A DNA stretch of 64,000 nucleotides from the NCBI GenBank assembly GCA_001442985.1, contig LDYB01000019.1, positions 62,001-126,000 on the forward strand, given 5' to 3'. The translations under genes were made by a program, and so were the position numbers. This document shows positions 38,544 through 41,500 of this stretch, one piece after another. Position 1 is the first letter of the stretch. Each line of letters begins with the position of its first letter. The notes beneath the pieces are model-generated. The model was not told where the DNA came from and did not search any database. It saw nothing but the letters and a program-made list of their open reading frames with translations. The stretch comes from Armatimonadetes bacterium DC (GTDB lineage: Bacteria; Armatimonadota; Fimbriimonadia; Fimbriimonadales; GBS-DC).

Positions 38544-38633
38544 TGGCGTCAACGCGGTGCAATGCTGTCGCTTGCTTGCCTTCCCAGACAGCTTCTAACA
38601 GGAGTCCACACTGCAAAAGCGTATGTAAACTCT

Positions 38634-40628
38634 ATGCACTCTCAAGACCTGATGACGGTTTTGCGTGAGCGGTTTGGCTTTGACGCCTTCCGCGACGGTC
38701 AGGAGGAGGCAATTCTCGCGGCGCTGGAGGGCAGGCGTGTCTTGCTGATTCAACCCACAGGCTGGGGCAAAAGTCTGGTCTATCAGATGATTGCCGCCCT
38801 CCGCGGGCTGACGCTCGTTTTCTCGCCTCTGCGGGCTTTGATGCGCGATCAGGTGCGCCAGGCATGTGAGCGCTACGCCCTGCGAGCCGATACCGTCAAC
38901 TCCGACATGGACGAGGAGGAGCAACAGGCGGTTCTGGAGCGTGCCGTAAACGGTCAAATTGACCTGCTTTATATCGCACCTGAACGACTCAGCAATCCCC
39001 TCTGGCAGGAATACCAGTTGCGTTTGCCCATCCGTGCTGTGGTGATTGACGAGGCGCACTGTGTCTCGGTGTGGGGGCACGACTTCCGTCCTGAATACCG
39101 CCGCATTGTCCACCTCGTGCGCTTGCTGCCCCCGGAAGTGCCCGTCGTTGCCGTGACGGCGACGGCAACCCCACGCGTAGAACAGGATGTGCGTGAGCAA
39201 ATCGGAGAGCCGTTCCACATTCTGCGCGGAGCCCTGACGCGCCCAAATCTCCGCCTCTTTGTGCAGCGCGTCAACTCCGACGCCGAAAAACTGGTCTGGC
39301 TGGACCACCTGCTCCGCCTTCTGCCTGGTAGCGGACTCGTCTACACCGCAACGCGCGGCAACAGCGAGTGGGTTGCCCAGTACCTTCAGGAGCGCGGGCA
39401 TACGGTGGCATACTATCACGCAGGCTTGGGGGCAGAGCGAACTGCCCTCGAACAGCAACTCATCCGAAACGAACTCAAAGCGCTGGTCTGCACGAACGCA
39501 CTCGGCATGGGGCTGGACAAACCCGACCTGCGCTTTGTGATCCATGCCGAAACACCCGCCTCGCCCCTGCACTACTATCAGGAAATCGGGCGCGCGGGTC
39601 GCGACGGCGAACCCTCATGGTGCGTCTTGCTGGCTCACCCCGACGACAAAATCCTGCAGGAGAACATGATTCGCAACAGTCGTCCCGCCCCAAACGCCTA
39701 TCAGCAGGTCTACACCCTGCTCCAGCAATCGCCCATGCGCGAGCGCGAACTCTCGCTTGAAACAGGGCTAACCCAGAACAGCCTGCGCACCATTCTGTAC
39801 GACCTGATGGATCAGGGGTTAATCACGCGCGATAGCGAGCGCTACTATCGGGCAATCAGACGCGGGCAAATTGACCACTTCCACTATCAGGCAATACTGG
39901 AGGCGAAACTGCACGACCTGGAGGCAATGCTCGCCTACTGGGAGACCTCAGAATGTCGCATGCGCTACCTCTGCCGCTTTCTGGGGGATGAGACTGCCCG
40001 GAACTGCGGCGTATGCGACCGCTGCCAGCAGAAAGGATTGCCGCCTCCTGAACCCGCCCTGTTCGCCGAAGCAGAGCGTTTTGCCTATCATCCGCCGCTT
40101 CCTTTAAGTGGAGTCTATCAGAAAGAACCTGTCTATGTGCAGGGCTATGCCCTGAGCTACTACGGAGGCACGCCCATCGGCGAAGTCGTGCATCGGTGCA
40201 AGTATGAAAGTGGAGGCGCGCTCCCCGATTGGGTTATTCAGCAGGCGGCGACCTGTGTCCGCGAGCGATTTCCCCTGCAACAGATTGACGCTCTCGTGCC
40301 TATCCCGCCCAGCGTCAGCGGCGGTTTCGTGGAAGATTTCGCGAGACGCCTTGCCCAGCAACTCGGCGTGCCTTATATGCCCGTTTTGCAAAAAACACGC
40401 GCCACCCGCCCGCAGAAAGAGTGGACGAACAAGGTTCAGAAAGCGGAGAACCTGAAAGATGCGCTCCTGTGTACCCAGCCCCTGAACGGCAAGCGCCTGC
40501 TGGTGGTCGACGATGTGTCGGATTCGGGAGTCACGCTGGAGGTAGCGGGTAAAATTCTGAAGAAGGCGGGCGCAGGCGCGCTCTATGCGTTCTGTCTCGC
40601 ACGCACACGCCACCGGGGGGATTTATAG
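38634..40628 (+). CDS. RecQ-family helicase fused to a ComF-type phosphoribosyltransferase
   Basis: The 664-residue protein begins with a RecQ superfamily 2 helicase: TGWGKS (42-47), DEAHCVSVWGHDFRPEY, TATATP, HYYQEIGRAGRDG and a RecQ zinc site (C-x-x-x-x-x-C ... CGVCDRC). After about residue 480 comes a phosphoribosyltransferase like ComFC: QQIDALVPIPPSVSGGFVEDFARRLAQQLGVP, then LLVVDDVSDSGVTLEVAG with the PRPP loop. ComFC works in DNA uptake with a helicase (ComFA), and here RecQ takes that place. No HRDC domain is seen. The ATG at 38634 lacks a close ribosome binding site, and ATG 38652 is possible. The DprA-like gene follows 2 bp later. Confidence 0.85.
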   Translation: MHSQDLMTVLRERFGFDAFRDGQEEAILAALEGRRVLLIQPTGWGKSLVYQMIAALRGLTLVFSPLRALMRDQVRQACERYALRADTVNSDMDEEEQQAVLERAVNGQIDLLYIAPERLSNPLWQEYQLRLPIRAVVIDEAHCVSVWGHDFRPEYRRIVHLVRLLPPEVPVVAVTATATPRVEQDVREQIGEPFHILRGALTRPNLRLFVQRVNSDAEKLVWLDHLLRLLPGSGLVYTATRGNSEWVAQYLQERGHTVAYYHAGLGAERTALEQQLIRNELKALVCTNALGMGLDKPDLRFVIHAETPASPLHYYQEIGRAGRDGEPSWCVLLAHPDDKILQENMIRNSRPAPNAYQQVYTLLQQSPMRERELSLETGLTQNSLRTILYDLMDQGLITRDSERYYRAIRRGQIDHFHYQAILEAKLHDLEAMLAYWETSECRMRYLCRFLGDETARNCGVCDRCQQKGLPPPEPALFAEAERFAYHPPLPLSGVYQKEPVYVQGYALSYYGGTPIGEVVHRCKYESGGALPDWVIQQAATCVRERFPLQQIDALVPIPPSVSGGFVEDFARRLAQQLGVPYMPVLQKTRATRPQKEWTNKVQKAENLKDALLCTQPLNGKRLLVVDDVSDSGVTLEVAGKILKKAGAGALYAFCLARTRHRGDL

Positions 40629-40630
40629 CG

Positions 40631-41500
40631 ATGGAGGAACGCGAATGGGTCTACTGGATGCTGCTGGCGCACGGTGAACACCGCGACCTGCGCAAACGCT
40701 TTCGGCAGCAGCAACCTGCCGACATCGGCGCCTTCCTGCGCGACCAGCCCGAATGGACACAAATGGAGCCACTCCTGACCCAGGAAGCGCTGGTGTTGCA
40801 CCAGTTCCTGCAGCAGGGAGGGCAGTTTCTTACCTGCTATCATCCCGAATATCCCGCGCGCCTGCATGATGCCTCTGCCCCACCGCTGGTGCTGTACGCG
40901 CTGGGCAAACTCGCCCTGCTGGAGTCTGCCCCCCTCGCCGCAATAGCAGGCTCACGCAATCCCTCGGAAGAGGCACAAACGCAAACCCAGCGCGTTGCCC
41001 AGCATCTCACAGAGCAGGGTTATGGCATTATCACAGGCTTCGCGAAAGGCATAGACCAGATTGCCGCGCGCACCGCGCTGGAAGCAGGCGGGATTGTGGT
41101 GGGGATCCTGCCTCAAGGGTTGCTTTCCAAACTAACCCAGCAGCTTGTTCGGGAATGGATGCAGCCCCTCAACGACGACCGCCTGCTCCTGCTCTCAGAG
41201 CTGCACCCGCTCGCGGGCTGGTCTTCAGGGGCAGCGATGATGCGCAACCGTCTGGTGGCAGCCCTCGCGGAGTTCGTGGTGATTATCGAATCGGGGGCGC
41301 GAGAGTCGCTCAAAAACGGCAAAAAAGTATTCAGCGGCACCTATCAATGCGCCGAAGTCGCCCACAAAATGGGGCGCACTGTGTACGCGCTGGATCTCCC
41401 TGCGCCAGGCAACCAGCAACTGCTAAAAACGGGCATCGCCCGACGGTGGGGCGAACCCCTCGAGCAGAGCCATCACTCCCAGCTTCATCTCTTCCCCTGA
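40631..41500 (+). CDS. DprA/Smf-like DNA-processing protein
   Basis: The 289-residue protein has a Rossmann-like DprA domain: PLAAIAGSRNPSEEAQTQTQRVAQHLTEQGYGIITGFAKGIDQIAARTALEAGGIVVGILPQG, then MMRNRLVAALAEFVVIIESG and an SGTYQCAEVAHKMGRTVYAL segment. DprA loads RecA on incoming single-stranded DNA during transformation. It diverges from standard DprA in losing the YP-x2-N segment after the glycine loop, and the N-terminal 80 residues are unlike the usual SAM-like domain. It begins 2 bp after the RecQ-ComF gene, so the two are co-translated. A DNA-uptake role is inferred; a defence role is an alternative. Confidence 0.8.
   Translation: MEEREWVYWMLLAHGEHRDLRKRFRQQQPADIGAFLRDQPEWTQMEPLLTQEALVLHQFLQQGGQFLTCYHPEYPARLHDASAPPLVLYALGKLALLESAPLAAIAGSRNPSEEAQTQTQRVAQHLTEQGYGIITGFAKGIDQIAARTALEAGGIVVGILPQGLLSKLTQQLVREWMQPLNDDRLLLLSELHPLAGWSSGAAMMRNRLVAALAEFVVIIESGARESLKNGKKVFSGTYQCAEVAHKMGRTVYALDLPAPGNQQLLKTGIARRWGEPLEQSHHSQLHLFP

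Follow-up and report, generated by a model that had tools for sequence, protein, structure and literature searches.

The window analysed here, a stretch of 64,000 nucleotides from Armatimonadetes bacterium DC (contig LDYB01000019.1, positions 62,001 to 126,000), carries two adjacent genes that are almost certainly a member of the PsyrTA/RqlHI family, since the first one matches the complete PsyrT profile of PADLOC and the second one has PsyrA as its best match. The features of this family are all found in the pair: a RecQ-type helicase and a C-terminal phosphoribosyltransferase (PRTase) in one protein, an intact PRPP site, and a DprA-like partner encoded directly 3' of the fusion. It is very likely that the pair is an already described system for which a toxin–antitoxin operon is the best explanation, the RecQ-based competence machine proposed in the first-pass annotation being a false lead that can be removed. 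Chance can be taken as excluded, because all the motifs are conserved across phyla and so is the gene pair.

PsyrTA is reportedly known from Pseudomonas syringae through the work of Sberro et al. in 2013. The best studied example is RqlHI, the pair of E. coli F11, in which the PRTase domain of RqlH is the genotoxic part, the D663 region is required for toxicity, and RqlI, whose HTH part is dispensable, binds and restrains RqlH (Russell & Mulvey 2015; PMC4670107). The toxicity of RqlH alone, its relief by the partner and the contact between both proteins have been described for E. coli RqlHI only (PMC4670107).

The RecQ–PRTase fusion

In the first gene (psyrT/rqlH-like; 38634..40628, plus strand), one frame holds a RecQ-type helicase and a PRTase domain, a fusion that the first reading had proposed, together with a zinc-binding region. 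This frame is open from position 38562 (longest reading, 688 aa) to the stop at 40628. The start is likely to be 38634, the position originally given, which yields a protein of 664 aa, because relatives align only from about residue 23-28 of the longest reading. Pfam recognizes DEAD (1.1e-26), Helicase_C (1.6e-20), RecQ_Zn_bind (4.7e-08) and Pribosyltran (3.7e-11) domains. The SF2/RecQ helicase core (38694..39608, plus strand), supported by the matches to DEAD (45-207) and Helicase_C (247-349) and by Foldseek, contains the motifs TGWGKS, DEAH, TATAT and GRAGR. It is followed by the RecQ zinc-binding region (39891..40028, plus strand), whose four conserved Cys are invariant in an alignment of 22 sequences, and by the PRTase domain (40134..40610, plus strand), which corresponds to the part of E. 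coli RqlH that is toxic (PMC4670107). Within this domain, the PRPP-binding loop LLVVDDVSDSGVT (40497..40535, plus strand) is intact and shows the DD..DS..T pattern. Walker A, DEAH, GRAGR, the zinc Cys and the PRPP loop are all intact in the window fusion, and the key residues, those of the DD..DS..T pattern included, are invariant in 61 relatives.

The best PADLOC match of the fusion is the PsyrT profile (755 bits, E 1.4e-227, profile positions 5-687 of 689), which is also matched by 61 out of 61 aligned relatives. The ShosT profile matches the PRTase weakly (34 bits). The PRTase is intact. Its description as ComFC-like refers to a distant likeness, since the ComF subfamily model TIGR00201 gives a weak match at the C-terminus (31.6 bits; cut-off 233.55). 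In the AlphaFold model of the fusion (pLDDT 93.0), the nearest structures found by Foldseek are RecQ cores, the best one being the E. coli RecQ core 1oyw. A PsyrT-type protein encoded by an E. coli conjugative plasmid is 35% identical to the window fusion over 696 columns, and the gene next to it is annotated as DprA.

The DprA-like partner

The second gene (psyrA/rqlI-like; 40631..41500, plus strand) encodes a putative antitoxin of 289 aa with a DprA (SLOG) fold, assigned from Pfam, PADLOC and fold comparisons. The DprA-like gene does follow the fusion directly: the junction (tag|CG|ATG; 40626..40633, plus strand) leaves a gap of 2 nt. In close relatives the psyrT-psyrA junction is a 4-nt ATGA overlap; therefore, both genes most simply read as one operon.

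The loss of standard DprA segments that had been noticed in this protein is borne out. Pfam DNA_processg_A is matched at 9.9e-41 and the C-terminal DprA winged helix is unmatched, the score lies below the cut-off of the canonical dprA equivalog (121 vs 191 bits), and the SGALITA stretch found in the canonical DprA of the host is missing, whereas the GSR, G.A.G.D and M.R motifs common to its own family are retained. In PADLOC, PsyrA is the best match (169 bits, 4.9e-50), followed by ShosA (127 bits). The top fold matches of the AlphaFold model (pLDDT 94.5) are the antitoxin ShosA (8zva, the top PDB match) and DprA (3uqz).

Two other loci of the host genome were considered as further pairs. One is a third DprA-like gene (L085:9409-10302, G000:C15:19435-20067; 297 aa, 56 bits to PF02481, no winged helix), which adjoins genes for a two-component-propeller protein and a DUF255 protein and has no PRTase neighbour. 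In the other one (L086:7510-9124, G000:C9), a SLOG cluster-4 (LDcluster4) gene overlaps a ribose-phosphate pyrophosphokinase gene tail to tail. Both were rejected, as a PRTase toxin gene of the PsyrT type adjoins neither of them.

Distribution and linkage of the pair

The host genome comprises 2.85 Mb, is 95% complete and has Fimbriimonadales (Armatimonadota) MAGs as its closest named kin. Among 121 related genomes, full-length fusions number eight in the family of the window and about 14 elsewhere in the order or phylum; one further family fusion is truncated at the end of its contig, and the fusion frame of genome G082 is broken in two. The partner is encoded in every fusion-bearing genome of this set. 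Within the family, the two genes are linked in G000, G004, G007, G008, G009 and G011. In G012 and G015, psyrA lies on another contig, far from the contig end, and a different gene adjoins psyrT; the same arrangement is apparent in G017, although there the contig ends within psyrT. Thus, in two, probably three close relatives psyrT and psyrA (L077/L078, L079/L080 and L081/L082, respectively) are encoded apart, with unrelated neighbours, for which rearrangement and mis-binning of MAG contigs are the candidate causes. Another member of the family, G001, has only a psyrT fragment of about 107 residues, 66-69% identical (L083:5270-5674, G001:C100), and no psyrA match above the level of canonical DprA; this fragment is apparently a decayed remnant.

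A species-level genome scan keyed to the PRTase motif alone gave 80 loci, which span Bacteroidota, Bacillota, Actinomycetota, Pseudomonadota, Chloroflexota, Verrucomicrobiota, Cyanobacteriota, Acidobacteriota and others. The count of the pairing that the first-pass annotation had called for is clear: a DprA-like ORF lies downstream of the fusion in 76 of these 80 motif-selected loci, a sample chosen by similarity to a query alignment of mostly paired examples and not an unbiased census. It follows directly in 74 loci and after about 1.6 kb in two. In three of the four exceptions the partner position lies beyond the contig edge, and the remaining one, G012, is unlinked. The overlap is of exactly 4 nt in 30 of the 76 paired loci, with starts assigned mechanically.

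The two Bacteroidota loci with about 1.6 kb between the psyrT and psyrA homologues (L111 and L120) have room for an extra gene. An archaeal plasmid RecQ–PRTase (L103, NZ_CP011565.1) has the divergent PRPP loop DDTVGSRWS and lacks a neighbouring gene annotated as DprA-like; it is possibly a different or decayed branch.

Almost all Gram-positive RqlH proteins have been reported to lack RqlI (PMC4670107). However, the Bacillota, Actinomycetota and Chloroflexota loci of the 80-locus sample have the DprA-like partner directly downstream, and the survey argues that PsyrT-type proteins have such a partner far more consistently than that report indicated. The discrepancy may come from the stricter ortholog criteria of PMC4670107, and the sample used here favours kin of paired examples. 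An uncultured thermophilic lineage is hereby added to the range of PsyrTA. Smaller additions are that the operon is split in some relatives, that the antitoxin is short and that Gram-positive phyla have the partner gene downstream.

Genomic context and transmission

In a phylogeny of 81 sequences, the clade of the window fusion has full support, with a Bacteroidota-rich clade as its sister group, and further Fimbriimonadales fusions are placed in different clades; this tree is a quick one, with compositional warnings. The patchy presence of the pair and these separate clades suggest that it spread by horizontal transfer in Fimbriimonadales.

Some copies are found on plasmids. In an E. coli conjugative plasmid (L100, NZ_OX030731.1:37352-40869), the order of genes is hsdM, hsdS, RecQ–PRTase, DprA-like and hsdR, so that the pair lies inside a type I restriction-modification (R-M) operon. 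An Acinetobacter plasmid carries the pair beside BREX pglX, and a Nostoc plasmid carries it beside parAB. The window copy is flanked by nos genes on one side and by flagellar genes on the other, these neighbours being named from sequence alone. In the neighbourhoods of relatives, about two of 128 neighbour genes are type I methyltransferases, and no clear enrichment in defence genes was seen among these 128 genes, a count that has no matched control. Residence in defence islands is not general for the pair, because defence genes are few among these neighbours and the window copy sits between nos and flagellar genes. No RNA or tRNA features were found in the window, and phage records gave helicase-level matches only, none of them covering 80%.

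The alternative that survives best is that the pair is a selfish addiction module of no benefit to the cell, which we consider unlikely. Toxin–antitoxin logic, carriage on plasmids (including the copy beside parAB), the patchy distribution and the absence of a fitness defect in an ExPEC double deletion of rqlHI (PMC4670107) are in its favour, but its conservation is long, across many phyla and with all active-site residues invariant, and the plasmid pairs are inserted in R-M and BREX operons.

Genome maintenance and competence as less likely readings

A lower probability still is given to a role in genome maintenance, in which PsyrT would be the RecQ of the cell, regulated by a DprA-like protein, in line with the beneficial DNA function considered by Russell & Mulvey. 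The fusion is the sole RecQ-type match in the host genome, helicase activity is known for the M. smegmatis homologue, and an action of RqlHI on DNA has been proposed (PMC4670107). However, four family members that are 94-100% complete (G002, G003, G005 and G006) lack the fusion and gave no RecQ-type match at E 1e-20, and G001 has its fragment only. PsyrT is therefore dispensable, since near-complete relatives without the fusion have no RecQ at all, and a housekeeping RecQ is disfavoured on the same grounds; the placement in the tree also suggests acquisition rather than vertical descent. Quite improbable is a variant in which hot-spring Fimbriimonadales would have recruited the short PsyrA and the sole-RecQ PsyrT, apart in some species, as a regulated DNA-processing complex and not as a toxin–antitoxin system.

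The proposal that the RecQ–PRTase fusion replaces ComFA and ComFC and its partner replaces DprA in the uptake of single-stranded DNA is highly improbable and was rejected, because the same genome encodes elsewhere a canonical DprA (on C20; 260 bits vs the 191 cut-off, DprA_WH present), a separate ComFC with a double zinc ribbon (C14:24356; 91-96 bits, also under the strict ComF cut-off of 233.55) and ComEC (on C16). The domain analogy to ComFA, ComFC and DprA had already been pointed out by Russell & Mulvey (PMC4670107), and no ComFA-sized DEAD-box gene was seen in the host genome; however, it does not follow from a missing ComFA that RecQ stands in for it, and the replacement of ComFA by RecQ is unsupported. 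The fusion PRTase resembles ComF weakly, the nearest profiles are those of PsyrT and PsyrA, and the distribution of the pair, patchy within the family, extends to E. coli and to plasmids. Canonical DprA, expected to be missing wherever the pair is present, is found in the host, and most pair-bearing relatives have a second, canonical-type DprA match. Of the two observations that would have told against this proposal, canonical comFC and dprA genes elsewhere were found, while the other one, lack of co-occurrence in relatives, was not, as the two genes co-occur strongly. What stands of the two-gene module for single-stranded DNA is a conserved module; its assignment to DNA uptake does not.

Proposed mechanism and role in defence

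The toxin–antitoxin reading, preferred here, makes such action of the pair in this organism probable, by analogy with the E. coli pair and ShosTA. The PRTase domain would be both aided and restrained by a helicase travelling on DNA. It might consume or perturb the PRPP/nucleotide pool, or act on bases at the DNA, which would damage DNA and arrest growth. The DprA-like partner would bind PsyrT, and probably single-stranded DNA, and hold the toxin in check. When DNA metabolism is disturbed, for instance by a phage, the PRTase would be released and the cell would stop. ShosT has been described as a PRTase/pyrophosphatase that disturbs purine metabolism, and ShosA as a DNA-binding protein (reviewed in PMC12593503); we infer that PsyrT may act like ShosT.

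The other suggestion of the first-pass annotation, a nucleotide-sensing defence system, came nearer the mark, as PsyrTA is catalogued both as a toxin–antitoxin system and as a candidate defence system. A pair of DprA and PRTase proteins protects against T7 and lambda, and a defence role has been proposed for it (PMC9122126). In one E. coli host, PsyrTA expression caused a growth defect and no protective activity was detected (PMC12409345). A phage-defence role of the window pair is plausible but unproven, and, by analogy, the chances that defence is its purpose appear evenly balanced. Some observations run against the best explanation: the window copy lies outside a defence island, the genes are apart in G012, G015 and probably G017, and PsyrA is devoid of the RqlI extension.

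Comparison with known systems

The competence proteins ComFA/ComFC and DprA share with the window pair a PRTase fold, a helicase and a DprA fold, but the host has separate canonical ComFC and DprA proteins, and the window partner fails the dprA cut-off and has no winged helix. The homologue of RqlH in M. smegmatis has the same architecture of helicase and PRTase but was reported to be without an RqlI partner (cited in PMC4670107). ShosTA of E. coli also combines a PRTase effector with a DprA-like antitoxin, and the window partner matches ShosA (8zva) best in fold; however, ShosT has no helicase and its profile matches the window PRTase weakly (34 bits). The closest likeness is to PsyrTA/RqlHI, in which a RecQ–PRTase fusion is followed by a DprA-like gene, with agreement in the full-length profile match, gene order, junction, zinc Cys and PRPP loop. 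The window pair differs from it in that its PsyrA has 289 aa, compared with 400 aa in RqlI, and lacks the C-terminal HTH extension, and in that it is a chromosomal copy, located between nos and flagellar genes.
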